From Niabella soli DSM 19437 (lineage in GTDB: Bacteria; Bacteroidota; Bacteroidia; Chitinophagales; Chitinophagaceae): a stretch of 64,000 nucleotides of DNA. The DNA lies in the NCBI RefSeq assembly GCF_000243115.2, contig NZ_CP007035.1, positions 744,001 through 808,000 of the forward strand, given 5' to 3'. This document shows positions 26,869 through 54,568 of this stretch, piece by piece (positions within the stretch are counted from its first letter, which is position 1; each line of letters starts with the position of its first letter). Under the pieces are notes generated by a model. It ran no database searches and was not told where the DNA came from. It was given only the letters and a program-made list of their open reading frames with translations. Made by a program: the position numbers and the translations under genes.

Positions 26869-27804
26869 ATGAACAGAAGGAATTTTATATCAAGCACAGG
26901 ACTGGCAACCGCCGGATGGTTAAGCACGGTTAATAGCGGGAAACCAACTCGTGCGCTATCAAAACAGGGGCAGGTTGATGGCGCCGGCAGCGGTTACGAT
27001 CTTATGAGGGAAGTGGCCCGATACCGGAAGCTGGATGCGCATTGCCATGTAAACCTTTTTGACGGCCCGCCGGAGAGCAATATTGATTTTGCAGATAGAT
27101 TGCATATTGATAAAATGGTGGTTTCCCGGCCCATATTCGATGGGAAAGGCACTCCGGCCGATTTCATCCGGTATAATGATCTTGTGTTACAAGCGATGAA
27201 AAAGTACCCTACGCACTTTTTAGGACAGTTTACCGTGAACCCGCTGTATCAGAAAGAATCATTGGAGGAAATAGACCGGCGTGCGGGCCAGGGAATGGTA
27301 GGCCTTAAAGTATATACCCAGGTAAAAATCAGCGATCCGCTGTTTTACCCCATTGTAGAAAAGATGATCAAATATAAAATGATCACGCACATGCACTCGA
27401 ACTGTCAGTTGGGACTGGGAGGATACCGGATGAAATATGATACTGGTGTCCGGCCTCAAACCTCCATACCTGAAGATTTTGTGGCCATTGCCACACGGTA
27501 TCCGGAAGCCCTGTTTCAATATGCGCATATTGGCGGCGGCGGTGATTGGGAATATGCCTGCAAAATGCTGGCCGGTTGTAAAAACGTATACGTGGATACG
27601 TCGGGCAGCAACAATTCCGGACATATGGTAGATTTTGCCGTACAGCAACTGGGCATTCACCGGGTGTTTTACGGAACGGATAATTGTTACTATCAAAGTA
27701 TTGGGAAAATACTGGCATCCAATCTATCAGACGAACAAAGAAAGATGGTGTTTTTTGATAATTATAAAAATATGCTTTTAAAATCGGGTAATCATGTTAA
27801 TTGA
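26869..27804 (+). CDS. Tat-exported amidohydrolase, catalytic partner, copy 1
   Basis: 311 residues with Tat signal NRRNFISSTG. Metal ligands are complete: KLDAHCHV (HxH), MITHMHSN (His), FQYAHIGGGGDWEY (His) and VFYGTDNCYYQS (Asp). Its last 11 nt (ATGTTAATTGA) overlap the next gene, the same arrangement as 52870/53783, giving translational coupling. Related copies are at 52870 and 54960. It is predicted to hydrolyse an ester, lactone or amide, or to decarboxylate a substrate, in the periplasm; the substrate cannot be read. Confidence 0.85.
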   Translation: MNRRNFISSTGLATAGWLSTVNSGKPTRALSKQGQVDGAGSGYDLMREVARYRKLDAHCHVNLFDGPPESNIDFADRLHIDKMVVSRPIFDGKGTPADFIRYNDLVLQAMKKYPTHFLGQFTVNPLYQKESLEEIDRRAGQGMVGLKVYTQVKISDPLFYPIVEKMIKYKMITHMHSNCQLGLGGYRMKYDTGVRPQTSIPEDFVAIATRYPEALFQYAHIGGGGDWEYACKMLAGCKNVYVDTSGSNNSGHMVDFAVQQLGIHRVFYGTDNCYYQSIGKILASNLSDEQRKMVFFDNYKNMLLKSGNHVN

Positions 27805-28600
27805 TTGTAATGCGTATGTTGGCCACTGGCCATTTTTGCAGCTACAGTATAATCGCTGCGAAGGACTATTGTCTAAAATGAACAGCTACGGAGTAGACCT
27901 TTCCGTTATCAGTAACCTGAATGGTATCTTTTATGCCAACACGCAGCCAGGCAATGAAGAGCTGCATCAGGAGCTAAAATCCCGCAAATCATTTCAGGAC
28001 CGGTTCATCCCCTTTGCCGTTATTAATCCCATCTATGCGGGATGGAGGAGGGACTTTAAAACCTGCATGCAGCAGTGGGGCATGAAGGGGGTGCGCCTCT
28101 ATCCCAAATATCATGATTATACTATTACAGACGCCAATTGTGTAGAACTGGTAAAGATGGCCCGTGATGCGAATGTACCGGTGTGCTTTAACATGCGAAT
28201 GGTAGACAGCAGAGCACGTTCCTGGATGGATATTGACTATGTGACCGGCACAAAAAAACCGGAATGGAATATAAAAAATATTTTGCCTATAGTGGAATTG
28301 GTTCCTGATGCAAAATATATTGTTTTAAATTATGCGAATCCTGTAGCACTCTCCGATAAGGAAAAGCAGCTTATCCAAAATGCCCATCTTTTAATAGATA
28401 CATCGGGCAGGGGGTTGACGCATATGGGCGAGGCTATAAATAGTTTTGGCGTACAAAAATTTGCTTTTGGTACACATGCGCCGATACTGGATTATTTAAC
28501 CGGGCAACTGCGTATTGAATCGTTGCGGCCATCCGAGGCAACGGAGAACGATAAAGAAAAGATCCGTAGCGGAAATATTAAGAAAATGCTTGCGGTATAA
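27794..28600 (+). CDS. Amidohydrolase-fold pseudo-enzyme partner without signal peptide, copy 1
   Basis: 268 residues, homologous to amidohydrolase-2 barrels, but all expected metal ligands are changed: strand 1 reads LIDCNAYVGHWPF (HxH becomes N-x-Y), strand 5 CFNMRMVDSR (no His), strand 6 VLNYAN (Asn), strand 8 FGTHAP (Asp to His). The second copy at 53783 has the same kinds of change, so this looks like a fixed state rather than decay. No signal peptide is present although its coupled partner carries a Tat signal; co-export as a complex is possible (inference). A heme, different metal site or purely structural role are alternatives. Confidence 0.75.
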   Translation: MLIDCNAYVGHWPFLQLQYNRCEGLLSKMNSYGVDLSVISNLNGIFYANTQPGNEELHQELKSRKSFQDRFIPFAVINPIYAGWRRDFKTCMQQWGMKGVRLYPKYHDYTITDANCVELVKMARDANVPVCFNMRMVDSRARSWMDIDYVTGTKKPEWNIKNILPIVELVPDAKYIVLNYANPVALSDKEKQLIQNAHLLIDTSGRGLTHMGEAINSFGVQKFAFGTHAPILDYLTGQLRIESLRPSEATENDKEKIRSGNIKKMLAV

Positions 28601-28602
28601 TT

Positions 28603-31600
28603 ATGATGTTTCGCTTTCTTATACCAATAAAATGTGCAGGGCTTATACTGACGCTCATGGGCCTCAGTTATCAATCCGTTGCGCAACGTATTTACGGCGG
28701 TTTTTACACGGCAGATAAATTAAAAAACAGTATTGAGAATTGCAGGAAATATGACTGGGCCATACAGTTAAAAAATAGTACGCTGCAAAAAGCGGCGGTT
28801 TGGAAAAATAAAACAGATGATGCTTTATGGGCAATGGTTCCGGCCCAGGACGTGCCCAGAACAATAGACGTTACCTTAAACCGTGCAGCCCGTGAGCCCA
28901 AAGTGTCTGGTTGCCTAAACTGCGGGAATGATTTATCGGCCTTTGGCAATTACCCGTATATTGTAACGGTTGAAAAACATCCCTGGAAAATAGAATGCCC
29001 GGTTTGTCATGCCCTGTTTCCTACAAATGATTTTGAAAAGTATTATAAAAGCGGCATCAATAAGAAGGGGGTCTTTGATTCATCCATTGCCGACAAAAAA
29101 CTACTGTTCAATACGGCGCATCCCGACGTGCAGGATCCGCTGCATCAATTTGGTGTGGATGACGGATGGGGATACAATCTTACAAAGGATAAAGTATACC
29201 GCTTTGTGGGCTATTATAACTGGAAGCAGTGGAACTATATTATTGATGGACTGAGCCTATTGTCCGATGCATGGCTGTATTCAGGCGATACGGTTTATGC
29301 GCATAAAGCCGCGATTCTTTTAGACCGCATTGCAGATGTATATCCTGATATGGATTGGGCACCGTATGCTAAAAAAGGCTGGTATCATTCTGATGGCGGC
29401 GGGGGCAAAGGAAAGATCGGCGGCTCCATATGGGAAACGGGTTTGGTCACTACCATGGCGCTAAGCTACGACAAAATACTCAGCGGAACCCTGAACGACG
29501 CAGCGCTGTTTGCCTTTTTAAGCAAAAAAGCGAAGGCGTTTCAGCTTCCTTCAAAAAAGGGAAGCCGCGAACTATGGGTGCATAATATTGATCAAAATAT
29601 TTTGCTGACAATTTTTGACGCAGTGATGAAAGAAGATATTCGCGGCAACCAGGGGATGCATCAGTTGAGTGTGGCCGCCGCTGCTATAGCGTTGAATACG
29701 CAGCCCGAAACCAATAAATGGCTCAACTGGCTGTTTGAACCCCTGGGAGGCGCCATTCCCGGAATTATGCTCACCCGTTTTAACCACGACGGCACTTCCG
29801 ACGAAGGAGCGCCGGGTTACGCACTAATGTTGTCCGGACTAATAACGCAAACTGCTGCATTACTCCATGGCTACAACGGGTACACGGCGCATGATATACT
29901 CATGGAATTTCCCCAGTTAAGAGCAGGCTTTATGGTTGCCTGCAACATGCTGGTAGCCGGTAAATCAATTCCCAACCAGGGCGATTCCGGAGCTACGGGC
30001 CTGGTATCTTCATCGGGCTGTAACCCGGCATTTGTTGCTTTGGGATTTTGGCTTTATAAGGATGCAGAGCTGGGATTGCTGGCCTATACAGCCAATGGTA
30101 ACAAGGGCAAGGGGCTGCATGCTCCTGTTTACACCAGCAATCCTGAAGCCTTAAGCAGTGAAATAGAAGCAATCGGGAAAAAAAATCATCATGTGTCTGT
30201 TGCCAGCCGGCTGTTAAGCGGTCATGGATATGCTATATTAGAAACAGGCGGAAAGAAAAATCCTACAGGGTTGATTATGAACTATGGCCGTTCCATCAAT
30301 CACGCACATCCGGACCAGTTGAATATCGATCTTTTCAGTTTCGGAAAATGGCTGGCGCCGGATCATGGTTATCCGGAGTATGCCACCAAATGGCCTTCTA
30401 ACGAAGAATGGACCGGCACTACACTATCACATAATCTTGTACTGGTAAATCAAAAACCACAAAAGGAAAACTGGACCGGCCATACAAAACTATTTCAATC
30501 CGTGGATGGGTTTTCAGCAGTAACCGTAAGCGCGCCGGACGCTTATCCCGGCATAGAAAAGTATGAACGCACGTTGCTTTTAATCGGCGGCACTAAAACA
30601 GATACCAATAGTTATGTGGTTGATTTTTTTAACGTAAAAGGCGGCAACGACCATTTGCTTAGTTTTCATGGCCCGCCGGGCACAATGACGACTACGGGGC
30701 TTCAACTACGGCAGGAGCCGGGAACCTATGCGGGGCCTGATGTGCCGAAAGGTGCATGGGCAAAAGGATTCCCTGTCGGATACTCCCATTTGTATGCAGT
30801 ACAGAAAGATAGCAGCCCCGCCAAAATGTTCACCATTAACTGGCGGGTCAGTGATCAGTACCGGCCCGTAAAAGATCCACGACCGGTTCAGTTGAAACTA
30901 CACGTTTTAACACCGGTGAACGATGTGGCGGTTGCAAAGGGAGATCCGCCTCAAAATAAGGCCGGCAATCCCAAAAATCTGGATTATATACTCCTTCATA
31001 AAAACGGAAAAGATCTTAACTCGGTTTTTGTAAGTATACTGGAACCGTACGTCGCTGCTCCTTTTATTAAAAATGCCCGCCAGATTGCCGTTGATAGCAG
31101 TGAGGTAACTATTTTAGAAATAGAAAATGAAAACGGAACTATAGATTATATTATCAAAAATAATGTTGGTGGTCATGTCAGCACAAAAGAAATTCAGTTG
31201 GAGGGCACTATAGCCTGGCTGCACACCCGAAAAGGTAAATTGCTGCGGGCTGTTTTGATAGATATGCCTTATCTGAAGTATAAGGGTTTTTCCCTGAAAG
31301 GCTTGCCGTCCCTGACGGGGAAGGTATTGGATATGAATAAAAAAACGAGCGGCGAGGGTTGGATTCTGGTGGACCGGCCACTGCCTGAAAGCGTTACCGG
31401 GCAGTATATTTTGATTAATAATAAAACAAACAGGGACGCTGCCTATTTAATCAAGGAAGTAGCACCACAAGGGAAAAATACGAGACTGAATTTTGGACCG
31501 TTGAATTTTGTCAGCGGATTTAAAGGTCCGGAGGTAAATGTGCGAAAAACGCGGGTGCCGCAGACCTACGATTTAGGGTATGAGTATGAGTTCGGGATCG

Positions 31601-31644
31601 GTGATGCGTTCGAAATCAGCCAGGTTCGGGAAATAAAAAAGTAA
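28603..31644 (+). CDS. Heparinase II/III-family secreted polysaccharide lyase-like protein
   Basis: 1013 residues, with a Sec signal peptide (cleavage near SVAQ). An N-terminal CxxC...CxxC set (Cys104, 107, 132, 135) suggests a small zinc knuckle. An alpha/alpha toroid follows (about 180-530; WETGLVTTMALSYD, RELWVHNIDQN), then the heparinase II/III beta-sandwich with MNYGRSINHAHPDQLN and LSHNLVLVN, containing the His/Tyr-type catalytic region. Such enzymes cleave uronate-containing polysaccharides by beta-elimination. It begins 2 bp after the pseudo-amidohydrolase gene and is followed after 17 bp by a DegT gene. Exact PL family not assignable by eye. Confidence 0.82.
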   Translation: MMFRFLIPIKCAGLILTLMGLSYQSVAQRIYGGFYTADKLKNSIENCRKYDWAIQLKNSTLQKAAVWKNKTDDALWAMVPAQDVPRTIDVTLNRAAREPKVSGCLNCGNDLSAFGNYPYIVTVEKHPWKIECPVCHALFPTNDFEKYYKSGINKKGVFDSSIADKKLLFNTAHPDVQDPLHQFGVDDGWGYNLTKDKVYRFVGYYNWKQWNYIIDGLSLLSDAWLYSGDTVYAHKAAILLDRIADVYPDMDWAPYAKKGWYHSDGGGGKGKIGGSIWETGLVTTMALSYDKILSGTLNDAALFAFLSKKAKAFQLPSKKGSRELWVHNIDQNILLTIFDAVMKEDIRGNQGMHQLSVAAAAIALNTQPETNKWLNWLFEPLGGAIPGIMLTRFNHDGTSDEGAPGYALMLSGLITQTAALLHGYNGYTAHDILMEFPQLRAGFMVACNMLVAGKSIPNQGDSGATGLVSSSGCNPAFVALGFWLYKDAELGLLAYTANGNKGKGLHAPVYTSNPEALSSEIEAIGKKNHHVSVASRLLSGHGYAILETGGKKNPTGLIMNYGRSINHAHPDQLNIDLFSFGKWLAPDHGYPEYATKWPSNEEWTGTTLSHNLVLVNQKPQKENWTGHTKLFQSVDGFSAVTVSAPDAYPGIEKYERTLLLIGGTKTDTNSYVVDFFNVKGGNDHLLSFHGPPGTMTTTGLQLRQEPGTYAGPDVPKGAWAKGFPVGYSHLYAVQKDSSPAKMFTINWRVSDQYRPVKDPRPVQLKLHVLTPVNDVAVAKGDPPQNKAGNPKNLDYILLHKNGKDLNSVFVSILEPYVAAPFIKNARQIAVDSSEVTILEIENENGTIDYIIKNNVGGHVSTKEIQLEGTIAWLHTRKGKLLRAVLIDMPYLKYKGFSLKGLPSLTGKVLDMNKKTSGEGWILVDRPLPESVTGQYILINNKTNRDAAYLIKEVAPQGKNTRLNFGPLNFVSGFKGPEVNVRKTRVPQTYDLGYEYEFGIGDAFEISQVREIKK

Positions 31645-31661
31645 CAAAAAAATTAATAATC

Positions 31662-33008
31662 ATGAATCAAAAAAATGGCCGCCGGATTTTTATAAGGAAT
31701 GCTTCCGTTATTGGGCTGGGGGCAACTGTAAATTTTGGAAAAATAGCCCCCGTACTTTTAACAAACAATGAAAAGCCGGCCATTCTGGGGGGTGTGCCTT
31801 TGTTTCATACACCCTGGCCCAAATGGCCGATGTGGAATAAGGAAACGGATGAGCCGTTGGTGCTGGAAGTATTACGCAGCGGCGTGTGGTCGCGGGCCAA
31901 GACAGTGGATTTATTTGAAAAGAAATGGACCGCCGTTATTGGCACAAAGCGCGCTTTAACCACTGTAAATGGTACCAATGCGTTGATTACCTCGGTAATA
32001 CAGTCAGATATTGGTGGCGGTGATGAAGTGATATTAACGCCTTATACTTTTATAGCAACACTTACTGCGGTGCTGGCTTCCGGCGCAATGCCGGTATTTG
32101 CAGACGTTAACCCGGACACCTTCCAGATAGATCCTGAAGCTATTAAGAAAAAAATTACCAGCCGTACAAGAGCCATTTTGCCCGTGCATATTTGCGGCCT
32201 GCCTGCCGATATGGAAAACATAATGCCCATTGCGCAGCAGCATAATTTACTGGTTATTGAAGACGCCTGCCAGGCCTGGCTGGCAGAAATCAATAATAAA
32301 AAAGTGGGCACTTTTGGCCATGCGGGCTGTTTTAGTTTTCAAAATTCCAAGCATTTGCCTATGGGAGAGGGCGGCGCCATTGTAAGTGATGATGATACAT
32401 TTATGGACCGGTGTGTTTCATTTCATAACCTGGGGTTACCCTATGGTACTGCTGGCGCAAGACCGGGCAGCAAACTCCGGCTTACGGAATACCAGGCGGC
32501 CATCGGACTGGCACAATTAGCAAGGCTTTCCGGGCAAACGGATACCCGAAATGTCAACGCCAATTATTTACGCGGACAAATGAAAGATATAAAAGGCATT
32601 ACCCCGCATGTTTTAAACAAAGGCGTTACAAAAGCGGCTTATCATTTATTTCCTTTCAGGTATGACAAGCGTCATTTTGCCAACCTGTCGAGAGAGCTGT
32701 TTATAAAAGCACTACAGGCCGAAGGTATTCCCTGTTCGGGCGGCTATACACCCTTAAATGCCGTTCATAACCTGGGCAATACTTTTGAAACAAAAAATTA
32801 CAAAAAGATGTATGCGGCGGCAGAGCTGAGTTATGAAAAATTTAAGGAAAACAACCAGTGTCCTAAAAATGAAGCGCTGTGCCTGGAAGCAGTATGGTTG
32901 CCACAAAATGTATTATTAACAGACAAGGAGAGCATGGACGCTATTGTTGATGCCATCCGCAAAATACAAAAAAATGCGCCGGCAATAAGCAAAACGGCAG
33001 TAAAGTAA
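31662..33008 (+). CDS. Tat-exported DegT/DnrJ/EryC1/StrS aminotransferase, copy 2
   Basis: 448 residues with Tat signal GRRIFIRNAS. Asp201 (VIEDACQAW) and Lys230 (FSFQNSKH, before MGEGGA) are intact PLP residues. The N-terminal AILGGVPLFHTPWPKWP matches the same subgroup pattern as copies 1 and 3. Relative to copy 1 the active-site loop is conserved, while the C-terminal region differs (SGGYTPLNAVHNLG). Last gene of the enolase/amidohydrolase/lyase run. It is followed by the REP-flanked transposase. Substrate unknown; see findings for the periplasmic aminotransferase hypothesis. Confidence 0.87.
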   Translation: MNQKNGRRIFIRNASVIGLGATVNFGKIAPVLLTNNEKPAILGGVPLFHTPWPKWPMWNKETDEPLVLEVLRSGVWSRAKTVDLFEKKWTAVIGTKRALTTVNGTNALITSVIQSDIGGGDEVILTPYTFIATLTAVLASGAMPVFADVNPDTFQIDPEAIKKKITSRTRAILPVHICGLPADMENIMPIAQQHNLLVIEDACQAWLAEINNKKVGTFGHAGCFSFQNSKHLPMGEGGAIVSDDDTFMDRCVSFHNLGLPYGTAGARPGSKLRLTEYQAAIGLAQLARLSGQTDTRNVNANYLRGQMKDIKGITPHVLNKGVTKAAYHLFPFRYDKRHFANLSRELFIKALQAEGIPCSGGYTPLNAVHNLGNTFETKNYKKMYAAAELSYEKFKENNQCPKNEALCLEAVWLPQNVLLTDKESMDAIVDAIRKIQKNAPAISKTAVK

Positions 33009-33176
33009 AGCCGGTTTATAAGATAAAAGATAAAACCACCCGAGTTGTTTAGTTAAGAGGTTTAATCAGCCCCACAGGGCCAGCCGGCAGACAGCTAAAT
33101 AGCCCGGTACGATTATTACGCCCCGGCCGGCCTATCGTGTGGACACAACTGATCTTTCCGTAGTTGGTGCTAAAGT

Positions 33177-33261
33177 GCCCGGAGGGCATAATGTACATAG
33201 CCCGCAGCGTTAGCTGTGGGAAAAGAAATGCGTAGAAGACGCGGCCCCGAAGGGGTCGAAT
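33177..33261 (+). repeat. REP-type repeat, left arm flanking the RAYT gene
   Basis: 85 bp containing three successive hairpins: GCCCGGAGGGC (33177-), CCCGCAGC..GCTGTGGG (about 33200-33220) and GGCCCCGAAGGGGTC (33243-). It is the inverted counterpart of 33797-33880. The outer hairpins are nearly identical in both arms; the middle stem has a different sequence but still pairs. Confidence 0.75.
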
Positions 33262-33267
33262 AATAGC

Positions 33268-33711
33268 TCACAATAAATATTTTTCATCAAATGCAACACC
33301 ATTCTCAATTAGCAACCGCTTATATTCATCGTAAAACGGCTCAATTTTATGATGCTCTTTTTGATTTTTGACATAGCTGGTAATGGTACTCCTTTCTTTT
33401 ATTGAATAGGTGAAGGCACCGTAACTTTCCTGCCATCCACGAAATTCTGGAAACCGACTATTGTTTTTCATCCATATACTGCTGGATGCTTTTATATCCC
33501 TGATATAATCAGCAAGTGATATTGAGGGATGAAGGTCTGAAAAAATATGTATATGATCTTCTGTGCCGTTGATGCGATAGAGCTTACATTTTTTATTCTT
33601 TATAATACCCCAGATGTATTTGTAAAGTTCCTCACAATGCGCTTCTGTAATGGTTTTACAGCGATTTTTAGTAGCAAATATAATCTGGTAAAAAATCTGG
33701 CGGTAACTCAT
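33268..33711 (-). CDS. REP-associated tyrosine transposase (IS200-like, Y1_Tnp)
   Basis: 147 residues, starting MSYRQIFYQIIFATK, the usual start of this family in Bacteroidota; a longer frame to 33750 is less likely. It has the HUH motif EDHIHIF (His53, His55) and candidate nucleophile Tyr113 in TSYVKNQKEHH. Y1 transposases nick and rejoin single strands at hairpins. The gene is flanked by inverted 85-bp REP arms, so it fits a RAYT/REPtron rather than a mobile IS with defined ends. It looks intact. Confidence 0.88.
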   Translation of the reverse strand: MSYRQIFYQIIFATKNRCKTITEAHCEELYKYIWGIIKNKKCKLYRINGTEDHIHIFSDLHPSISLADYIRDIKASSSIWMKNNSRFPEFRGWQESYGAFTYSIKERSTITSYVKNQKEHHKIEPFYDEYKRLLIENGVAFDEKYLL

Positions 33712-33796
33712 GACATTTATTCCATAGGTTATAGAATACCGTTCTGTCAACTGTAAGGTACGTTTAATTTTAGAAACTTCAACCCGCGTTCATTAC

Positions 33797-33880
33797 ATTC
33801 GACCCCTGCGGGGCCGCCTGTTCTACACATCTCTCACCCCGGGCTAAAGCCCGGAGTTATTCACATTACGCCCTCCGGGC
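33797..33880 (-). repeat. REP-type repeat, right arm flanking the RAYT gene
   Basis: 84 bp, inverted copy of the left arm at roughly 75-80% identity by eye. Hairpins: GACCCCTGCGGGGCC (about 33801-33815), CCCCGGGCTAAAGCCCGGAG (about 33837-33856) and GCCCTCCGGGC (33870-33880). The middle hairpin is a stronger stem than in the left arm, with compensatory changes. Confidence 0.75.
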
Positions 33881-33926
33881 TATGCCTGCTTTATTTCAGT
33901 AAGTATTCTCTATTAAGTGCCCGGAA

Positions 33927-34676
33927 TTAAAGTAAAGTGAGGTTGGTGTCCTGGTACTTTAGTAAACGATCGTCGCTGGCCTCTAATTCAGTAATAAGAT
34001 AATTGACCTGGTTTACATCACAGATCTTAATGGTTTGGATGGAGTTTAGTTTTTCAGAAATAGTGAGCACTGCCACTTTTTTAGCAGAGCGTATCAGGGC
34101 CTTTTTCGCCTGAACCACTTCCCAGTCAAGATCGGTTAACCCTTCTTCCACCGAAAAAGCGTTGGCACCCAGCAGGCAAAGGTCGGCTCTTATTTCCGAT
34201 AGCTGATTGATCATGCCCGAACCTACGTGAAGGTTGGCATTTTTTAGCAATCTTCCGCCGATAGTAATCACTTCAATATTGTCAAATTCAGAGAGCGTAA
34301 TGGCAATTTGAGGACTGATGGTAAAAAAGGTGGCTTTCATGTTTTTGGGGATCATTTTAGCCAGTTCAAGTATGGTAGTTCCTCCTTCCGTAAGTACGGT
34401 TGAATTATTTTTGATCAGCCGCAGCGCTTTTTCTGCAATGATCTTTTTTAATTCAAGAGCATATACTTCGTTTTGCCCGCTAAAAGGAGAAATAAAGGAA
34501 GTGCCAACGGCGCCCCCATGCACTTTTACTACTTTGCCTATTTCCGCCAGCTCAATAATATCCCGCCTGATGGTATCGTCGGAAACTTTTAGCTGCACAC
34601 TCAAATCCGCGCACAATACTTTATTGTGGAGGTTGATTTCTTTTAATATAAATTTTTGTCTTTCGTCTTTGCGCAT
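33927..34676 (-). CDS. DeoR/GlpR-family transcriptional regulator
   Basis: 249 residues. N-terminal helix-turn-helix at about 3-57 (RKDERQKFILKEI, VSDDTIRRDIIELAEIGKVVKVHGGAV, the classic DeoR recognition helix and linker) and a C-terminal sugar-phosphate-sensing domain with TEGGTTILELAKM and LGANAFSVEEGLTDLDW. Such regulators usually repress sugar-catabolic operons until a phosphorylated sugar binds. An ATG 9 nt upstream (34685) is possible. It is divergent from the ECF sigma gene, with element copy 2 between them, making it the best candidate reader of that element (inference). Confidence 0.9.
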   Translation of the reverse strand: MRKDERQKFILKEINLHNKVLCADLSVQLKVSDDTIRRDIIELAEIGKVVKVHGGAVGTSFISPFSGQNEVYALELKKIIAEKALRLIKNNSTVLTEGGTTILELAKMIPKNMKATFFTISPQIAITLSEFDNIEVITIGGRLLKNANLHVGSGMINQLSEIRADLCLLGANAFSVEEGLTDLDWEVVQAKKALIRSAKKVAVLTISEKLNSIQTIKICDVNQVNYLITELEASDDRLLKYQDTNLTLL

Positions 34677-35100
34677 GACAATCATTTAGTTAAAGTTGAT
34701 CCCTTTTAACAATCCGTTGCTGTAAATTGTTCAGTTTGCCTGATTTAGCGGTAAATATATCCATATATAATAATTCGGGGTTATTTATTTTAAAAGGACA
34801 GGGCCTCTGAAAAAGCTGCCCGGAAAAAGAGATAAAAAACCCGGTTTATTGGTCCTATGTTTGGCTGGCATCTTATAAAAGTAAAAATACCGCAAAAAAA
34901 CCGCTAAAAAAAATTCAATATTACGGTTTTTGCAGTTATATTGCGTTAAATATCGATTGCAAATCTGCTAAAAGTATGCAAAATGTTGATCGATTATTGA
35001 TTCGCTGCTTTTCATTTTATTAATAAAGATCCGTTACCAGGTACCTTCTGCGGGCAATATTATTTAATTCTTCTATTGTAAACTTTTTATTTTTATCTGA
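34677..35100. other. Divergent intergenic region between deoR-family gene and ECF sigma gene
   Basis: About 420 bp, AT-rich. Contains element copy 2 at 34880-34946. Downstream of it, CTGCTAAAAGTATGCAAAATG (34965-) resembles CTGAAAACTGCAAAATG in the same place after copy 3, so similarity extends beyond the core. No ORF supported in the rest. Confidence 0.6.
34880..34946 (+). promoter_or_regulatory. Bipartite A-tract element, copy 2
   Basis: CCGCAAAAAAA at 34890 and CCGCTAAAAAA at 34901 (11 bp apart), then TTTTTGCAGTTATATTGCGT ending at 34946; the GTTATATTGCGT box starts 45 bp after the first half-site. It lies about 155 bp before the ECF sigma start and about 200 bp before the divergent DeoR-family start. 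Confidence 0.6.
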
Positions 35101-35691
35101 ATGCTACCAGACGACGAATTGCTTATACAGTTGAAAAATGGCGAAACAAAAGCGTTTACGGCCATCTACAACAAATACCATCAGCAGCTTTATGCTTATA
35201 TCCTGTATTTCATAAAGGATCGTCAGTTTGCCGAAGATGTATTGCAGGAAGTATTTGTAAAAATATGGAAGCACCGGGACCGTATCAATCCCCGGTTATC
35301 TTTCAACAGCTACATTTACCGTATTGCAAGGAACGCAGTGTTAAACCGTATGCGGAGCATGGCCTTTGAAAGAGTAATTGAATATGCCGGCGATGAGCAA
35401 TTCTCGTATAACAATAATGAAGACGCTGTTTTATGGAAACAATACAGCGCGCTGTTCAGGGAAGCGGTGGAGCATCTTTCCGAACAACGGAAAAAAGTCT
35501 TTCAGCTTTGCAGGGAAGAAAAAAGAACCTATGCAAATGTTTCGCAGGAGTTGGGCATTGCCACCAGCACCGTGCAGGATCATATGGTAAAGGCCATCCG
35601 GTTTATCAGGGACTATGTTACTAAACGAACCGGCCTTCAGTTAGACCTCTTTATTTTGATATTGTTGAAGCATCTTACTTTTTTTTCGTAA
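35101..35691 (+). CDS. ECF RNA polymerase sigma factor (Bacteroidota SusC-linked type)
   Basis: 196 residues. Region 2 at about 20-90 (AFTAIYNKYHQQLYAYIL, DRQFAEDVLQEVFVKIWKHRD, FNSYIYRIARN) and region 4 at about 120-180 (EHLSEQRKKVFQLCREE, ELGIATSTVQDHMVKAIRFIRDY). The C-terminus ends in a hydrophobic tail (LDLFILILLKHLTFF). It is followed by a FecR anti-sigma and a SusC with an STN domain, the standard trans-envelope signalling trio that switches on the downstream uptake operon when substrate binds. Confidence 0.94.
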   Translation: MLPDDELLIQLKNGETKAFTAIYNKYHQQLYAYILYFIKDRQFAEDVLQEVFVKIWKHRDRINPRLSFNSYIYRIARNAVLNRMRSMAFERVIEYAGDEQFSYNNNEDAVLWKQYSALFREAVEHLSEQRKKVFQLCREEKRTYANVSQELGIATSTVQDHMVKAIRFIRDYVTKRTGLQLDLFILILLKHLTFFS

Positions 35692-35741
35692 AGAACCCAC
35701 CGGCCGTTTGTTTTTGGGGTATTATAGATTGACGATGCTAT

Positions 35742-47499: not shown

Positions 47500-47583
47500 C
47501 TTGAAAGCCCGGATTTCATATTGGTGTTCAGCATCGTGTGGCGGCCGGCAATTTTTTCTATCGAATCTAAAAAAATATCTATC

Positions 47584-48933
47584 ATGAGTAGCCCTTTCAA
47601 TCGCAGAAAATTTATCAGCAGTGCAGCAATTATCGGCACGGGGTTAGCCGTTGGCGTCCCGCACATCGTATCCGCCGGTACCCCTACTGCCCGACCCGCT
47701 ATTCTGGGTGGGCCCAAGGCGCATTCAGGCACCTTTCCTTCCTGGCCGGTGGAAGAGGCTATTGAGGAAAATGGATTAACGGAAGTGTTAAGAAGTAAAA
47801 AATGGGGCCGGCTGGATGGCGTCCGGATGGCGAAATTTGAAACAGCATACAGCAAATTGCTGGGGGTTAAACACAGCCTGGGTGTTTCCAGCGGAACCAG
47901 CGCCCTTACCACTATTTTGGGCGCATTGGATATAGGACCGGGCGATGAAGTGGTAATACCTGTATACACTTTTGTGGCAACATATAATGTAGTCGTATTA
48001 AATTACGCATTGCCGATACTGGTAGATACGGATATCGAATCATTCCAGATAGATGCAGCCAAAGCAAAGGCCGCCCTTACTGCGCAAACCAAAGTTATCA
48101 TGCCGGTACATATTGGTGGGTCTCCGGTAGACCTGGATGCCTTTGTGGCAATGGGCAAACAACATAATATACCGGTAGTTGAAGATGCCTGCCAGGCGCA
48201 TCTGGCAGAATGGAAGGGGGTTAAGGTTGGCAATTACGGTTTGGCAGGAGCCTTTAGTTTTCAGTCTTCCAAGAACCTGAATTGTGCAGAAGGGGGCGCC
48301 GTTACAACCAATAGCGATGACTTTATTACCAACTGTTACACGTTCCATAACCAGGGGCAGGGAGGGCGATCTACTTCCTTTTCCACGGGGGTAGGTACCC
48401 GCGGTACCAACCTCCGGCTGACAGAGTTTCAGGGGAGTTTGTTATTGTCTCAAATGACGCGGGTTGTGGAGCAAAGCAACCGCCGCTGGGAAAACGCGCA
48501 ATACCTCTCCCGCTTGCTGCAAGAAATACCGGGAATTACTCCGGCAAAATTATATCCCGGCACTACAAAAAGCGCGTATCATTTATATATGTTCCGGTAT
48601 GATAAAAGCAGGTTTGCCGGTTTGAGCCGCGAAAAATTCTTACGGGCGCTAAGCGCTGAAGGCGTACCTAATTCTGCAGGGTATGGGCAAATGAACAAAA
48701 GTGCCTACGTAACAGCTTTGGCAACCAATAAACACTATCTGAAGATATATGGCGAAAAAACAATGAAGGAGTGGCTGGAAAGAAATCAATGTCCCCAGAA
48801 TGATGTTTTGACTTCAACCCAGTCGGTGTGGTTCTTCCAGAACATGCTGCTGGGGACGAAGAACGATATGGAGCAGATCGCTGAAGCCATAGGTAAGATA
48901 CAGAAATACGCGGCGGAGATCGCCCGGAAATAG
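47584..48933 (+). CDS. Tat-exported DegT/DnrJ/EryC1/StrS aminotransferase, copy 3
   Basis: 449 residues; start at 47584 gives Tat signal NRRKFISSAA. PLP residues Asp201 (VVEDACQAH) and Lys230 (FSFQSSKN) are intact, though the usual GEGG after the Lys is AEGG. N-terminal AILGGPKAHSGTFPSWP keeps the subgroup pattern. Clearly paralogous to 15756-17108 and 31662-33008 over the full length. Followed by a hairpin terminator-like structure and then the second ceramidase-family gene, repeating the DegT/ceramidase pairing of the first locus. Confidence 0.87.
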   Translation: MSSPFNRRKFISSAAIIGTGLAVGVPHIVSAGTPTARPAILGGPKAHSGTFPSWPVEEAIEENGLTEVLRSKKWGRLDGVRMAKFETAYSKLLGVKHSLGVSSGTSALTTILGALDIGPGDEVVIPVYTFVATYNVVVLNYALPILVDTDIESFQIDAAKAKAALTAQTKVIMPVHIGGSPVDLDAFVAMGKQHNIPVVEDACQAHLAEWKGVKVGNYGLAGAFSFQSSKNLNCAEGGAVTTNSDDFITNCYTFHNQGQGGRSTSFSTGVGTRGTNLRLTEFQGSLLLSQMTRVVEQSNRRWENAQYLSRLLQEIPGITPAKLYPGTTKSAYHLYMFRYDKSRFAGLSREKFLRALSAEGVPNSAGYGQMNKSAYVTALATNKHYLKIYGEKTMKEWLERNQCPQNDVLTSTQSVWFFQNMLLGTKNDMEQIAEAIGKIQKYAAEIARK

Positions 48934-48966
48934 AAGCTAGCTAATATTGAAGTTGCATTAATAGTA

Positions 48967-49020
48967 TGCTCTGTTGGTCTGGAACAATATGCCAGAGAGC
49001 AGATTGTTTTATTCTTTTTT
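48967..49020 (+). terminator. Possible Rho-independent terminator after DegT copy 3
   Basis: TGCTCTGTTGGTCTGG (48967-48982) pairs imperfectly with CCAGAGAGCA (48992-49001), with CTGG/CCAG closing a 9-nt loop; a T-rich stretch (GATTGTTTTATTCTTTTTT) follows to 49020. The stem has a bulge, so strength is uncertain. Confidence 0.45.
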
Positions 49021-49160
49021 GATAATGATTTATTATAAGAAAATAGTATACACAAATAAATATGCCTGGCGATGATCAGCAGGCAAAACCGTTTGGAATT
49101 GAAATTACTGGTTAAAAAAGTCTTTATAAAATAATGCATAATTTATTCAATAATAACCTC

Positions 49161-51008
49161 ATGAAGTTTACGCGCATCATTTCCATGGCATCTAAATATA
49201 CTCCTGTGCGCTGCATCGCATTGGTATGGGCTGCCTTGTTGCTGCCAGGAGTTGCTGCCTTTTCTCAACAAAAACCCCGAGGCCAGGCAACCATTGCAGC
49301 GGGTGTTGCCAGTGCTGATATTACACCTCAGTTTCCCATTCGTATGGCAGGGTATGCAGCACGGCTCAGTACGGATGCAGACAGCGTGCTGCAGCCGATA
49401 GCGGCCAGGGCGCTGGTGTTGGGCAGTGATGAGCAGCACCCAACCCTGATGATCACCGTAGACCTGGTAGGCATTCCCTGGCGCATTACGAAAAACGTTA
49501 CCGATTTTTTAGTAAAGGAAAAAGGAATGGACCCTGCCCAAATTGCCATTTATGCTTCTCATACGCACGGCGGACCAGAGCCGGGCAACCTGATCAATAT
49601 CCTGCAATACCGAAACGGGCACTTTAGCGATTCATTGCTGGCCTTACCACAACTTATAGAAATTACCCGCTACACCGAACTACTCACCCAAAAACTGAAA
49701 GACTTGGCAGTAGCCGCCTTGAACAATCGTAAACCCTGCCTCGTATCATGGGGGCAGGGACAGGCACAATTTGCAAGCAACCGGCGTACAAAAGACGGTC
49801 CTGTTGACCTGGCGCTTCCTATGCTGAAAATAGCGGATCTGAACGGCGCGCTGAAAGCCGTTTTTCTGAGTTACGCCTGTCACGGTACAACCCTGGGAGG
49901 CGATGTACATAAAATTCATGGCGACTGGATTGCCGAGGCGCGCCGGGTAATAGAGGCAAGACATACCGGAACGACCGCCCTTATTGCGCTGGGTTGTGCC
50001 GGAGATGCTAACCCTGCGCCACGCGGAAGCATGGAAAATGTTCAACAGCATGGTAAAGAAATTGCCGATAATATAGACAAACTTTTAACCGCTCAATTGC
50101 AGCCCCTTAATACGGCGCCATCCGGGACAATGAAATGGATCCGATTACCCTTTTCAAAAGTGCCTACCGCCGCCGAACTGATTGAATGGACAAAAGACAA
50201 AACGGTAAAAGGCTACTATGCGCGCCTTGCCCTTGAACGATTGGAAAGAGGAGACTCCATTCCCAGCGCAGTTAACTATCCCATACAGGTATGGAATTTT
50301 GATAACAAAATGGCAATGGTAAACCTTGCCGGCGAAGTGGTGGTTGATTATTCGCTGCGGCTTAAAAACACTTATGGCGCAGAACGGCTTTGGGTAAATG
50401 CTTATGCCAACGATGGTCCTTCCTATATAGCATCGCGCCGCGTTATCGGCGAAGGCGGCTATGAAGCCGAAAGCAGTATGTACTGGTACAATAAACCCTC
50501 TCCCTTTGTACCCGAAGTGGAAGACAGGATCGTAAATGCTGTAGACGAATTAATGCCCGCAGCATTTAAAGATAAAAGACCTGCAGCCAACCATCAGGAG
50601 TTGGTTCAGCCGGAAGCCGATGGATCGTATCGTTTATCTTCATGGCTGGCCGGCACCGCGGGCAGTCGCATTAAATATATGCCGGAATGGAAAGCCTTTG
50701 GCTGGTTTGATGCAAAAGATAAAGCCATCTGGCAGGTGAATATAGTAAAAGCGGGCAAGTACAATGTTTGGCTTGATTGGGCTGTTTCCGATGCCAAAGC
50801 GGGAAAATCATTTGAAGTAACGGCCGGTAATAAAAAAATAAAAGGCAAGGTAGATAAAACAGGGTCATGGTTTACCTTTCGCACAAAAAAGGCAGGGGTG
50901 ATGCAGTTGCCACAAGGTACAATAACTATAGAATTGAAATCGGGCAATGCAAAAGAGCAGGACTCTATGTTTGATCTAAGGGAAATGCGATTAGTGCCGG
51001 CAAAGTAA
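49161..51008 (+). CDS. Neutral/alkaline ceramidase-family protein with C-terminal CBM-like domain
   Basis: 615 residues with a signal peptide (cleavage near AFSQ). Ceramidase domain at about 30-450: GVASADITPQFPIRMAGYAAR, ASHTHGGPEPGN (HxH zinc ligands), SYACHGTTLGGD (His), LGCAGDANPAPRG. Residues about 485-610 form an added domain (AIWQVNIVKAGKYNVWLDWAVSD, TGSWFTFRTKKAGVMQLPQG) resembling carbohydrate-binding jelly rolls attached to sulfatases and DUF1080 proteins. Unlike the copy at 17130 it has no propeller insert. Likely an exported amidase or esterase acting on a glycoconjugate. ATG 49185 is an alternative start. Confidence 0.8.
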   Translation: MKFTRIISMASKYTPVRCIALVWAALLLPGVAAFSQQKPRGQATIAAGVASADITPQFPIRMAGYAARLSTDADSVLQPIAARALVLGSDEQHPTLMITVDLVGIPWRITKNVTDFLVKEKGMDPAQIAIYASHTHGGPEPGNLINILQYRNGHFSDSLLALPQLIEITRYTELLTQKLKDLAVAALNNRKPCLVSWGQGQAQFASNRRTKDGPVDLALPMLKIADLNGALKAVFLSYACHGTTLGGDVHKIHGDWIAEARRVIEARHTGTTALIALGCAGDANPAPRGSMENVQQHGKEIADNIDKLLTAQLQPLNTAPSGTMKWIRLPFSKVPTAAELIEWTKDKTVKGYYARLALERLERGDSIPSAVNYPIQVWNFDNKMAMVNLAGEVVVDYSLRLKNTYGAERLWVNAYANDGPSYIASRRVIGEGGYEAESSMYWYNKPSPFVPEVEDRIVNAVDELMPAAFKDKRPAANHQELVQPEADGSYRLSSWLAGTAGSRIKYMPEWKAFGWFDAKDKAIWQVNIVKAGKYNVWLDWAVSDAKAGKSFEVTAGNKKIKGKVDKTGSWFTFRTKKAGVMQLPQGTITIELKSGNAKEQDSMFDLREMRLVPAK

Positions 51009-51058
51009 ACAATCTATATAATATGAATCTTCCGCTGTTGTATTTAGGTGTATGAAAA

Positions 51059-51295
51059 ATTTATCTTTAATAAAGAAACGTTGAATTCAGAGAGAGTGGC
51101 TATGGCTCCAGGGGAGCCCGGTGTTTGTAGCGTTGCCGTGATGAAGCCCATCGGCTCTCCCGCCTCAGCGGGACCGCGTAAATACGAGACTCCTAGGGAG
51201 TCCAATCGCCCCTCTCATATTTTCTATAAACATGCCGCTCCGGCCGGAGCGGAAAATATAAGTTTGTCGTACACCTTTCTGTTTAAAGATAAAAT
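51059..51295. repeat. Palindrome-rich inverted-repeat element ending at a start codon
   Basis: Imperfect inverted ends: ATTTATCTTTAATAAAGAAA (51059-51078) and TTTCTGTTTAAAGATAAAAT (51276-51295). Inside are several short palindromes: GGCTCCAGGGGAGCC, CCCGCCTCAGCGGGA, GACTCCTAGGGAGTC and CCGCTCCGGCCGGAGCGG. The ATG of the next gene starts at 51296. An 83-codon reading frame here is not a real gene. Confidence 0.55.
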
Positions 51296-52804
51296 ATGAA
51301 TAAGCTAATAATTTTTCCTATAGCATTCCTGCTTTCATTTGCATTTGCTCAACCGGTTTTAGCGCAGCAAAAAACTATCTTTTCAAAAAATGGGGAAATT
51401 CATGATCAGGTCATAGCTGCATGGGAAAGCCAGTTTCGTAGCTATTATACTACTGAAATTCAAAAAAGACTATTTGGTGAAGGGGACGTTTATGTTTTGT
51501 ACGATGTACAGATTGGAGGATTGCAGGCTTTTACAGAGATGACGCGAAGATGTAAAGATACCCGGCAGATTGCAGAAATCGCAAACCTTTTAAATCCCGT
51601 CTTCGCTGCATTAAAGCCGATACCCGGAAGCAATAATAGCAACGGCTGGATCTGTTCGGGCGGACCCATATGTACCGCTTATGGTTTTATCGGCAAAGAG
51701 GTGCCGCTTTGCAGTGTGCAGTTCCTGGGCCTGTTGGGAGCGCTTGCTACCAGTATATCCGAAAATATCCCGGCCCGTCAGCAGACGGCGGAACTGAAAG
51801 CTTTTGTAAAAGCCGCTTTCAATACCATGGCTGTTCAACTGGATCGCTGGCTGACTTCTGGCTATTTTTCCTATGTTAATAAAAGACTTCCGGTAACGGT
51901 TGAAGCTATAAAAGCTAAAAATTCAAATTACTTTTTTACTGACGTGGATCTCTGGCACCTGACGGTGCTTTCTGACTTGTCTGAATTATACGAATTTGGC
52001 GTGCAGGCTGCTACCGCAGAAGGGGCAAAGGCTTTTGAATCGTTGCAAAATAAAAAAGATAACATTCACAAAATATTCGACCTGTTTTTAGCCCGCACCT
52101 TTCTTATCAAATCCCGTAATGGTGTAAGGGCAGCAATAGATAAAGGGTTTTGGAAGTGTCATTTTGATAACCGGTATGCCGGCTATACGGACACGCTCCC
52201 CCCCGTCAGTTGGGTGCCAGACAACAAAGGCGGATGGAAAATGAAAACGGCCGTTCCCTGGGATAGTTCCTATATTGCCCGGGATGCAGGATGGGACATT
52301 AGTCATTCAAGAAGACTGGTGCCTGCCCTGGAAACATTCGTTAGAAACCAGGAAAATATAAAAAAAGTCTGGGGCTACAGTAACCCGGCCTTTGACCCTG
52401 TAGCGATCCGTAAGGCTTACGCCAATCAGATTGTCGAAAAGCTTTGGAATGGTAATCTCCGTTTTCCGTTGTTTTCAAATTTGTGGAGTGGGGATAATGG
52501 CTGGTACCGCGTGGCGTATGCCAATCAAACGGGAAGGCAATTTGCCGGCTATCCTCCTTATGGACTAACTTCGTCTATACCCGATGGAGGGTACGTCGTT
52601 TGGGGAGCGTTCGATCCAACCCTGAATACCATTTTTAGAAATATTTTTGAATTGTCGGAAACAGACGAAGCAGAGTCGAAATTGTTTAGGGCGCGGTATT
52701 ATCCGGGCCTTTCCTATAACAAAGCAAAAAGATTATCCATTAATCGCTTTGCTTTCTTATCGGATATGGTAGGGCTTCCCTTGTTAAGCACAGGTAAGCG
52801 GTAA
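51296..52804 (+). CDS. Secreted protein of unknown function
   Basis: 502 residues with a Sec signal peptide (LLSFAFAQPVLAQ). I do not recognise a family. The sequence is mostly helical by eye, with aromatic motifs WICSGGPICTAYGF, FFTDVDLWHLTVLSDLSELYEFG, FWKCHFDNRYAGYTDTLPPVSWVPD and WDISHSRRLVPALETF; the last, with paired Asp/His and an all-helical layout, could fit an alpha/alpha barrel glycosidase or lyase, but this is weak. It sits between a ceramidase-family protein and the amidohydrolase pair, so it probably belongs to the same exported pathway. Confidence 0.6.
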   Translation: MNKLIIFPIAFLLSFAFAQPVLAQQKTIFSKNGEIHDQVIAAWESQFRSYYTTEIQKRLFGEGDVYVLYDVQIGGLQAFTEMTRRCKDTRQIAEIANLLNPVFAALKPIPGSNNSNGWICSGGPICTAYGFIGKEVPLCSVQFLGLLGALATSISENIPARQQTAELKAFVKAAFNTMAVQLDRWLTSGYFSYVNKRLPVTVEAIKAKNSNYFFTDVDLWHLTVLSDLSELYEFGVQAATAEGAKAFESLQNKKDNIHKIFDLFLARTFLIKSRNGVRAAIDKGFWKCHFDNRYAGYTDTLPPVSWVPDNKGGWKMKTAVPWDSSYIARDAGWDISHSRRLVPALETFVRNQENIKKVWGYSNPAFDPVAIRKAYANQIVEKLWNGNLRFPLFSNLWSGDNGWYRVAYANQTGRQFAGYPPYGLTSSIPDGGYVVWGAFDPTLNTIFRNIFELSETDEAESKLFRARYYPGLSYNKAKRLSINRFAFLSDMVGLPLLSTGKR

Positions 52805-52869
52805 AATTTGAATTAATCAACAATTATAAAACGCGAAATAGATTTATAAATTATTGCTATACATTGAAA

Positions 52870-53793
52870 ATGAATCGTAGAAAATTTGTGACCAATACGG
52901 CTAGCTCCGGCGCAGGTTTAATGCTGGGCAGTCTCCTGGCGGGTGCTTCCTATAAACAGAAGCCTTCTTTTGATGGCGGCGGGCCCCGGCGCAATTTCAT
53001 GCAGGAGGTGTTGAAATACCGTAAGATTGATACACATGCCCATGCCGATGAAAACCAGTATAAAACGGAGGTTAACCTCGATTTTGCAGACCGGCTCGGT
53101 ATCAGCAAGCTGATGATCTCAAATTTTATACGACCTTTCAGTGAAGGAACGCCCGATGATTTCCGGTCTAAAAACAACTTTATAATAAAGTGCATGAAAG
53201 CGCACCCGGACCGGTTTATCGGTACCGTGGCCCTCAACCCGGCATTTAAGAAAGAATCGCTTGAAGAGATCGACCGTTGCAGGGATGCCGGCATGACGGG
53301 GTTGGGAGAATTGTACAACCAGGTAAAAATTGATGATCCGCTTTATTACCCGATCATTGAAAAATGCATTGACCTCAACTGGAACATTATGATGCATTCC
53401 CCGGTGGGCTATTCGCGTGTAAAATTATACCCCGCTGAACCAAAGAATATTTCACTACCGGAGGATTTTGCAAGCATTGCAAAAAGGTATCCGGAAGCCC
53501 TGTTCCAGTTTGCTCATATCGGCGGCGGCATCGACTGGGAGTATGCCTGTAAAGTGCTGAAAGAATCGCCCAATGTCTTTATTGAAGTATCGGGGAGCAA
53601 CAATGCAGCCGGTATGATCGATTTTGCACTGAAATGTGTGGGAGAAGACCGGCTGGTATTCGGGTGCGATTATAGTTTTTACCAGGGAGTGGGTCATCTT
53701 TTTTCTGCCAACCTTACAGACGCACAACGAAAAAAGATCTTTTTTGAAAATATTGCGAAACGGTTAAAAAAAGCAGGTGTCTATGTTAATTGA
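52870..53793 (+). CDS. Tat-exported amidohydrolase, catalytic partner, copy 2
   Basis: 307 residues; ATG 52870 starts Tat signal NRRKFVTNTA (an upstream TTG is ignored). Ligands: KIDTHAHADE (HxH), IMMHSPVGYS (His), FQFAHIGGGIDWEYA (His), LVFGCDYSFYQG (Asp). Overlaps the partner gene by the same 11 nt as copy 1. The strand-5 region lacks the CQLGVGGYRMKY segment present in the copies at 26869 and 54960, so substrate specificity probably differs. Confidence 0.85.
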   Translation: MNRRKFVTNTASSGAGLMLGSLLAGASYKQKPSFDGGGPRRNFMQEVLKYRKIDTHAHADENQYKTEVNLDFADRLGISKLMISNFIRPFSEGTPDDFRSKNNFIIKCMKAHPDRFIGTVALNPAFKKESLEEIDRCRDAGMTGLGELYNQVKIDDPLYYPIIEKCIDLNWNIMMHSPVGYSRVKLYPAEPKNISLPEDFASIAKRYPEALFQFAHIGGGIDWEYACKVLKESPNVFIEVSGSNNAAGMIDFALKCVGEDRLVFGCDYSFYQGVGHLFSANLTDAQRKKIFFENIAKRLKKAGVYVN

Positions 53794-54568
53794 CAGCAAT
53801 GCCTATATCGGCCACTGGCCCTTTCTGAAATTGGACTACAATACACCGGAGACCCTCCAGGGAAGAATGAAGGAATTTGGGACAGACGTTTCGGTGATCA
53901 GCAATCTTAACGGCATTTTTTATAAGAACACGCAGCATGCCAATGACGAATTATTTGATGCCCTCCGCAGCAAAAGCACGTACCGCGACCGGCTGATCCC
54001 CTTCGCAGTTATCAATCCGGTATATGGTGGCTGGCGCGATGATTTTAAGATATGCACCACCACAATGGGAATGAAGGGAGTACGGCTCTATCCTCAATAT
54101 CATGGTTATGATATAGCGGCTGCACCTTGTATAGAACTGGTAAAAATGTGCCGCGATAAAGGCCTGCCCGTTGCCTTCTGCCTGAGAATGGTCGACAGCC
54201 GCACCAGCTCCTGGATGGATCTCGACAAGGAATGGACTTTAAAAGATATAGTGCCCATTGTAAAAGCCGTTCCGGATGCAAGGTACCTTATCGTAAATGT
54301 AGCCAACAGCACGGCGCTTAATGAGGAAGAACTAAACCTTTTCCGAAAGGCCGATCTGCTGATCGATACATCGGGTAGGAATATAACGAACTGGAGCGGG
54401 TTGTTTAAACAGTTCGGAACAAACAAATTTTGTTTTGGTACGCATTCGCCCATCCTGGATTATTTTTCCGGATTATTGCGGATTGAATCCCTGAGGGAAA
54501 AGGAAGCCGATGAAAAAACAAAAGAAGGGTTGCGGTCAGGCAATATAAAAAAATGGTTGGGATTATAA
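53783..54568 (+). CDS. Amidohydrolase-fold pseudo-enzyme partner, copy 2
   Basis: 261 residues, no signal peptide. Metal positions are substituted as in copy 1: LIDSNAYIGHWPF, AFCLRMVDSR, LIVNVAN, FGTHSPILDY. The strongly shared NAYxGHWPF, MKGVRLYPxYH, DSRxxSWMD and GTHxPILDY motifs indicate purifying selection on a non-canonical site. Start at ATG 53783 within the last 11 nt of the upstream gene; a GTG two codons earlier is possible. Confidence 0.75.
   Translation: MLIDSNAYIGHWPFLKLDYNTPETLQGRMKEFGTDVSVISNLNGIFYKNTQHANDELFDALRSKSTYRDRLIPFAVINPVYGGWRDDFKICTTTMGMKGVRLYPQYHGYDIAAAPCIELVKMCRDKGLPVAFCLRMVDSRTSSWMDLDKEWTLKDIVPIVKAVPDARYLIVNVANSTALNEEELNLFRKADLLIDTSGRNITNWSGLFKQFGTNKFCFGTHSPILDYFSGLLRIESLREKEADEKTKEGLRSGNIKKWLGL

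Follow-up and report, generated by a model that had tools for sequence, protein, structure and literature searches.

A metal-complete Tat-type amidohydrolase and its metal-less homologue, encoded by overlapping genes in Niabella soli, as putative subunits of one two-barrel enzyme

We analyzed a stretch of 64,000 nucleotides from the genome of Niabella soli DSM 19437 (contig NZ_CP007035.1, positions 744,001 to 808,000; the window hereafter, numbered from its first letter), which contains two pairs of overlapping genes. The first gene of each pair encodes A, a metal-complete protein of the Amidohydro_2 family with an N-terminal signal of the twin-arginine translocation (Tat) type, and the second encodes B, a signal-less homologue without the metal ligands; this A-B arrangement is referred to as type I. 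Comparison with related loci suggests that A and B are two subunits of one two-barrel enzyme, which would be exported by the Tat system on a single signal, with B as the metal-less partner. We give this reading a probability of roughly 0.77; the physical complex, the co-export and the role of B are all inferred from comparative sequence evidence.

The genome is a single contig of 4.70 Mb. The pairs had been recognized in an earlier reading of the letters alone (the sequence-only reading), and a check of the open reading frames (ORFs) confirmed its coordinates, strands and frames, along with the 11-nucleotide overlap at both loci and the presence of HxH, two later histidines and an aspartate in both A proteins. 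A1 (26869-27804, + strand; 311 amino acids) starts with the twin-arginine motif MNRRNF, matches Amidohydro_2 with 70.8 bits (Pfam PF04909; curated cut-off, 26.4 bits), and has all metal ligands in the alignment (H58, H60, H176, H220 and D271). B1 (27794-28600, + strand; 268 amino acids) has no signal and scores 20.5 bits, i.e., under the cut-off; it carries the motifs NAYVGHWPF, DSRARSWMD and GTHAPILDY, and all five ligands are replaced. The two genes share 11 nucleotides (27794-27804, + strand), ATG-TTA-ATT-GA, which read M-L-I-D in the frame of B1 and V-N-stop in the frame of A1, whose end, H-V-N-stop, falls within the bases for the B1 start. The second pair has the same organization: A2 (52870-53793, + strand; 307 amino acids, MNRRKF, metal-complete, 89.4 bits) overlaps by 11 nucleotides (53783-53793, + strand) the signal-less B2 (53783-54568, + strand; 261 amino acids), which at 29.1 bits is above the cut-off. 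A third Tat-type, metal-complete protein, which was not among the two pairs first described, is encoded directly beyond: A3 (54960-55904, + strand; 314 amino acids, 64.4 bits) has the same 11-nucleotide junction and only a truncated B, a GTG start with seven further codons (MLIDSNAY; 55894-55917, + strand) that is followed by unrelated DNA. A1 and A2 are 46% identical, B1 and B2 60%, and the two pairs are old duplicates (paralogues). The 11-nucleotide overlap is therefore common by descent and is not independent evidence; the sequence-only reading had used the identical overlap as an argument for a heteromer, and in its place we rely on the survey of 31 pairs described below.

One contig scan used patterns derived from MLID[CS]NAY and [VI]GHWPFL[QK], and is therefore biased toward B proteins that start like those of the window; the other surveys used profiles. 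The pattern scan returned 17 loci in Niabella, Membranihabitans, Daejeonella, Fodinibius, Dyadobacter, and Chitinophagaceae or Sphingobacteriales records. All 16 loci with a whole B (19 pairs) had A directly 5' with an 11-nucleotide overlap; at locus L023, where B is cut by the contig end, A is 5' with the same overlap by coordinates. The pair is rare: in a sample of the phylum, 2/395 genomes, the source genome included, had a type I match, and one further genome had a match to the sister group described below (type II). In a sample of 394 genomes of the family, for which the best six and the best five candidates at most per genome were scored in two profile searches, 13 genomes had a match to the B profile and 12 had an A match at 1e-20. 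These 12 were all among the 13, and the thirteenth (G465) holds a type II pair. Among the matches listed, the type I proteins of these 12 genomes number 23 A and 19 B, with four A without B and no B without A. Altogether, 37 type I rows were found. Two were dropped as edge fragments of B with the first gene outside the record (L046, 2-478, and L048, 3310-3801), and merging the remaining 35 at a threshold of 98.5% over the final 220 residues of the first protein left 31 distinct pairs, L023 being excluded. The survey of constant adjacency that the sequence-only reading had proposed as a check thus gave 31 distinct adjacent pairs and no B without A. The overlap was 11 nucleotides in 29 pairs, 7 nucleotides in one (L035) and 17 nucleotides in one (L037/L084), which rules out an overlap of exactly 11 nucleotides in every case. 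The A and B trees of 30 pairs were congruent (r = 0.79, compared to 0.35 for the best of 2000 permutations), suggesting that the pair travels as a unit. Open frames of 570-611 amino acids that match the B profile weakly (L027, L028, L052, L059-L065 and L068) were set aside; the three examined (L027, L028 and L052) appear to belong to a different, longer family.

A profile-profile comparison shows the homology of B and A (E = 3.7e-8 over 237 columns); B is a member of the fold family that does not belong to its metal enzymes. In the alignment, HxH, the beta5 and beta6 histidines and the beta8 aspartate are kept in 31/31 A (30 paired proteins and the orphan A3), and the full set in 0/31 B. The first HxH column of B contains N (30) or H (1), the second Y in all 31, and the beta6 column N (29) or D (2). 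The claim that B1 and B2 share their substitutions holds for HxH to NAY, for the beta6 histidine to asparagine and for GTH in the aspartate column; it fails for the beta5 histidine, whose column has N in B1, C in B2 and variable residues over the 31 B. The histidine of GTH also varies (His 25, Gln 4, Glu 1 and Gly 1). AlphaFold2 models of A and B match Amidohydro_2 structures by Foldseek (for A1, the decarboxylases of this family), with a probability of 1.00 among the 50 matches listed for each and TM-scores of 0.42-0.67; a sequence search of the PDB with B gave no match at E 0.1. B is under purifying selection: the ratio of nonsynonymous to synonymous rates (dN/dS) is 0.067-0.098, values that are rough because dS exceeds 1 throughout. 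It is retained from Niabella to Fodinibius, and in haloarchaea as well.

The Tat motif was defined as R[RK]x followed by a hydrophobic residue within the first 45 residues. It is found on A in all 30 complete first genes (28 RR and two RK) and on B in 0/31, in agreement with the earlier statement that the second protein has no signal peptide. The open frame 5' of B has 12 codons or fewer in 28/31 cases and 26 at most, so that an overlooked signal on B is very unlikely. TatC is encoded in the same genome as the window; with this machinery, an N-terminal RR motif and a hydrophobic stretch, A has the features predicted for a Tat substrate. One A (L074, 5777-6709) starts with SRRSFLRNTALSTAGLMLGGSVAGCSS; this Tat-type signal ends in a lipobox-like sequence, which suggests a membrane-anchored exported form.

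The search with B also returned a divergent sister group, type II, in which the order is reversed: a pseudo-subunit B' comes first and is followed by a histidine-bearing A'. Here, the RR motif is on B' in 7/7 complete proteins, the eighth being cut by a contig end, and on A' in 0/8, with an open frame of at most 26 codons 5' of A'. The genes overlap by 4 nucleotides in one case and are 31-508 nucleotides apart in the others. A' keeps HxH and both later histidines in 8/8, and the beta8 aspartate is replaced by histidine in 8/8. Among 128 genomes of one order, the same five contained all seven B' and all seven A' found.

Both barrels also occur in a single chain. In bacteria, 3/128 genomes (G171, G791 and G803) encode a protein of 586-588 amino acids with an RR motif, in which the N half is a pseudo-barrel (FDAFT, FSSH) and the C half is metal-complete by eye (LDMHMH, LYALxHR, IAHAGG and YGSD) and matches A with E = 3.8e-13; the N half matches A over the signal region alone. 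In G171 and G791 the fusion gene is directly 5' of a B'-A' pair and 3' of genes for a DegT-like protein with an RR motif and for SusD- and SusC-like proteins (by eye). No NCBIfam match was obtained for A, B, B', A' or the tested fusions. A tblastn search of 72,556 plasmid records with B1 returned five records, all haloarchaeal, with eight places. The eight genes, as read, encode 558-567 amino acids; the N half is an A homologue that scores 99-140 bits against the A profile (full ligand set in 8/8), and the C half is a B homologue that scores 103-167 bits against the B profile and has a tblastn E of 1e-18 or lower. The C halves have NAY (7) or NAF (1), and K, R or Q in the beta8 column. All eight start at the first barrel strand (MID-x-H-x-H) and have no signal peptide, which suggests that export is not the essential point of pairing. 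A ninth haloarchaeal gene (L133, 4750-6375; 541 amino acids) is judged from its motifs to be arranged the other way round, with the pseudo-barrel before the active one; its SHxPxxSAGA motif resembles that of the bacterial fusion, and its profile scores are lower than those of the other eight. On this plasmid, the active-pseudo and pseudo-active fusions lie side by side (L133, 2988-6375, - strand), near genes of the DegT type, class III aminotransferase and MR/MLE, an arrangement that recalls the bacterial locus L050, where a pseudo-active fusion is 5' of a B'-A' pair.

These observations can be combined in a single model. A and B would be translated as a coupled pair, then fold and assemble in the cytoplasm, where A would take up its metal. 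A would bear the metal site, and B, an amidohydrolase barrel without one, would serve as a structural and active-site-shaping partner. The folded heteromer would be carried across the inner membrane by the Tat translocase, with A supplying the only signal; in the sister group this signal would be that of the pseudo-subunit, and in the fused forms one signal or none would serve both halves. In the periplasm, the complex may act as a metal-dependent hydrolase or lyase as part of a locus for the catabolism of sugar acids or amino sugars. If the barrels bind before export, fusions in either order, partners that are always adjacent and a single signal that can move would each be expected. A heteromer exported by hitchhiking, as the sequence-only reading proposed, is well supported comparatively by the adjacency, the congruent trees, the reversed signal, and the bacterial and haloarchaeal fusions.

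A role of B in shaping the active site of A would have a precedent in this fold group. The active site of ACMSD requires Arg239 from the neighboring subunit (PMC11650718); an active site can thus be shared across a subunit interface. ACMSD and the gamma-resorcylate, 5-carboxyvanillate and 2,3-dihydroxybenzoate decarboxylases are among the nearest solved structures to A by sequence, and ACMSD and related decarboxylases are among the nearest to both A and B by fold. The ACMSD dimer consists of identical subunits. Unlike ACMSD, one subunit of A-B has no site of its own, making the pair asymmetric. A different arginine, R187 of A1, falls in the same alignment column as the arginine of the B motif DSRxxSWxD; this arginine is conserved in 31/31 A and 31/31 B. 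Its equivalent is present in 8/8 B' (Pro in 8/8 A') and in the pseudo C halves of 8/8 haloarchaeal fusions, and is inconsistent in their active N halves. As an idea only, a residue acting in trans would more plausibly be this invariant D-x-R arginine of the pseudo-barrels than one at the ACMSD position.

The same conservation can be explained if B has an enzymatic activity of its own, at a new site without metal that is formed by NAYxGHWPF, DSRxxSWxD and GTHxPxLDY and works on the product of A, i.e., if the pair comprises two consecutive enzymes. The three motif loops of B (7-15, 137-149 and 227-238) are rich in invariant positions over 21 B (17/34, compared to 46/234 elsewhere), and the purifying selection and the D-x-R arginine present in all B, B' and haloarchaeal C halves fit a second active site as well. 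However, key columns vary, namely beta5 and beta8, the latter with His, Gln, Glu or Gly in B and K, R or Q in the haloarchaeal C halves. The conserved loops also have the lowest confidence in the monomer model, as would be expected of an interface no less than of a new site. We consider two consecutive enzymes unlikely, although this is the strongest of the alternatives.

A less probable alternative is that B stays in the cytoplasm with a role of its own as regulator, scaffold or chaperone of A, and that A is exported alone. The absence of a signal motif from every B is what this predicts, and dedicated cytoplasmic chaperones of Tat substrates do exist, according to PMC4273604. Conversely, in the sister group it is A' that is signal-less and the pseudo-subunit B' that bears the signal, which fits poorly with B being always confined to a compartment of its own, and in the fusions both halves are covalently linked.

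Several observations weigh against the reading of A and B as one enzyme, the first being that A can outlive its own deleted B. The end of A3, GTG-TTG-ATT-GA, is followed by C-AGT-AAC-GCC-TAT, which completes MLIDSNAY in the frame of B, and then by unrelated sequence. B3 is intact in Niabella loci L009, L010 and L011, and the DNA similarity to them stops 23 nucleotides into B3. Nevertheless, A3 is still under purifying selection, with dN/dS of 0.044 compared to each of two paired Niabella orthologues (0.057-0.098 in comparisons among paired A genes and among B genes). Locus L111 contains an orphan A (7100-8059, - strand) followed by a similar short remnant of the B start, and the two losses are possibly the same event. 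Because A3 is maintained without its own B, it either acts alone or relies in trans on another B, namely B1 or B2; in the family sample, an unpaired A occurs in three genomes (G000, G417 and G761), each of which also holds a B. Of the proposed obligate heteromer, therefore, one direction stands, since B was not seen without A, and obligate pairing both ways is ruled out by A3 and L111. The same deletions, and the loss of all catalytic ligands, could be taken to mean that B is a functionless, decaying duplicate of A kept by linkage, a very improbable view that is largely refuted by purifying selection on B, the invariance of 63/268 positions over 21 B, and its retention from Niabella to Fodinibius and in haloarchaea. 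The other two unpaired A-like genes (L112, 7008-7835, - strand; L113, 1119-2078, + strand) have lost HxH: they have DAYGNAY and DAYANAY in its place, the later histidines and the aspartate remain by eye, and the L112 copy has no signal. They are possibly pseudo-subunits newly arising from the A lineage.

Further points on the same side concern individual lines of evidence. Two A proteins have RK rather than RR, and the loose Tat pattern also fits 67/251 other complete ORFs in these loci, so that the motif alone is weak and it is the contrast between A and B that carries weight. The surveyed pairs are related, and the counts are not independent trials. With histidine in place of the beta8 aspartate, the status of A' as active is less certain than that of A. 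The N half of the bacterial fusion is only a modest match to the B family (E = 9.9e-5, probability 58%), and the confidence of the two models is moderate (mean pLDDT, i.e., predicted local distance difference test, of 78 and 76.5). Finally, the trans-acting arginine of ACMSD has no obvious counterpart by eye in A or B, neither of which shows an arginine at the distance expected beyond the beta6 histidine.

A broader view, which we hold at somewhat below even odds, is that a class of two-barrel enzymes exists in Bacteroidota and haloarchaea in four forms (split A-B with the signal on A, split B'-A' with the signal on B', fused active-pseudo and fused pseudo-active), and that the reaction depends on residues of both barrels. 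The D-x-R arginine found in all B, B' and haloarchaeal C halves would be a candidate for the residue that the dead barrel supplies in trans. In this class, the Tat signal would be free to move between the partners because the complex is permanent. Two units lie side by side in several loci and may form a larger assembly.

The neighborhood gives some indication of a possible reaction; it should be noted that SusC/D and some DegT-, Nramp- and enolase-like neighbors outside the window were named by eye. The region 5' of A1-B1 encodes Nramp-type transporter, NAD-epimerase-like, weakly dihydrodipicolinate synthase-like and enolase-superfamily-like proteins, and this upstream order recurs in L086 (by eye). 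The enolase-superfamily-like gene (25438-26859, + strand) is directly 5' of A1, has an RR motif and weak NCBIfam matches, and a similar gene is directly 5' of A in L008 (cluster 18) and, by eye, in L085 and L086. Heparinase II/III-like and DegT-like genes are located 3' of A1-B1; the latter (31662-33008, + strand; cluster 2, present in 15/20 loci compared) encodes a pyridoxal phosphate (PLP) protein of the DegT/DnrJ/EryC1 type with an N-terminal RR motif. The window encodes a second protein of this type, also with an N-terminal RR motif (47521-48933); a protein of the PLP aminotransferase fold outside the cytoplasm would be unusual. A Ceramidase_alk-like gene (49134-51008, + strand; cluster 3) recurs in 10/20 loci compared. 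The neighbors of the haloarchaeal fusions, as annotated, are DegT-type aminotransferase, NAD-epimerase, Nramp, Gfo/Idh, ceramidase-domain and MR/MLE genes, kinds that also occur around the window pairs. Our guess, following pathway logic, is that the locus resembles a sugar-acid route (lactonase, dehydratase and aldolase) in which A-B would be the lactonase; more generally, a reaction of the lactonase or decarboxylase type is our guess for A-B.

The window contains another Amidohydro_2 protein (14773-15753, - strand; 48.8 bits), which clusters with L009 2535-3515 (RR motif), and no B match adjoins its gene. A run of genes at 6754-13085 (- strand), including a dehydroquinate synthase-like gene (9323-10477), looks like the ebo cluster; homologues of this run are located just 3' of the A2B2-A3B3 array in Niabella L009-L011.

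Tat hitchhiking, pseudoenzyme subunits and Amidohydro_2 proteins are each known already. A metal-less barrel of the amidohydrolase superfamily kept as a structural subunit has a parallel in the pseudo-dihydroorotase that partners aspartate transcarbamoylase in some bacteria; that complex is located in the cytoplasm, and the barrel is joined to a transferase to which it is unrelated. E. coli hydrogenase 2 (HybOC) and the aldehyde oxidoreductase PaoABC are established cases in which signal-less subunits are exported as hitchhikers: as PMC4273604 describes, one partner has the Tat signal, the others have none, and assembly precedes export. One signal per pair was likewise found here, in type I (30/30 compared to 0/31) and in type II (7/7 compared to 0/8). 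The partners in HybOC and PaoABC are different redox subunits, whereas A and B are homologues, one of them a pseudoenzyme, and the two sister groups, types I and II, place the signal on opposite partners. As would be expected of a pair of an active enzyme and a pseudoenzyme, the homologous partner has no catalytic residues, the genes are constantly associated, and purifying selection acts on them. A literature search, with most subscription papers outside its reach, found no paper on such active/dead Tat pairs; as far as this search reaches, homologous active and dead partners with a movable single Tat signal and archaeal fusions are undescribed.

Current annotation hides the unit: the haloarchaeal fusions are labelled just “amidohydrolase family protein”, and a signal-less B would probably be predicted to be cytoplasmic. 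With reciprocal versions of the signal and covalently fused controls, these proteins lend themselves naturally to testing whether homologous subunits hitchhike through Tat. They also suggest why a dead enzyme can be kept, namely as a permanent half of an enzyme, and not as a regulator.

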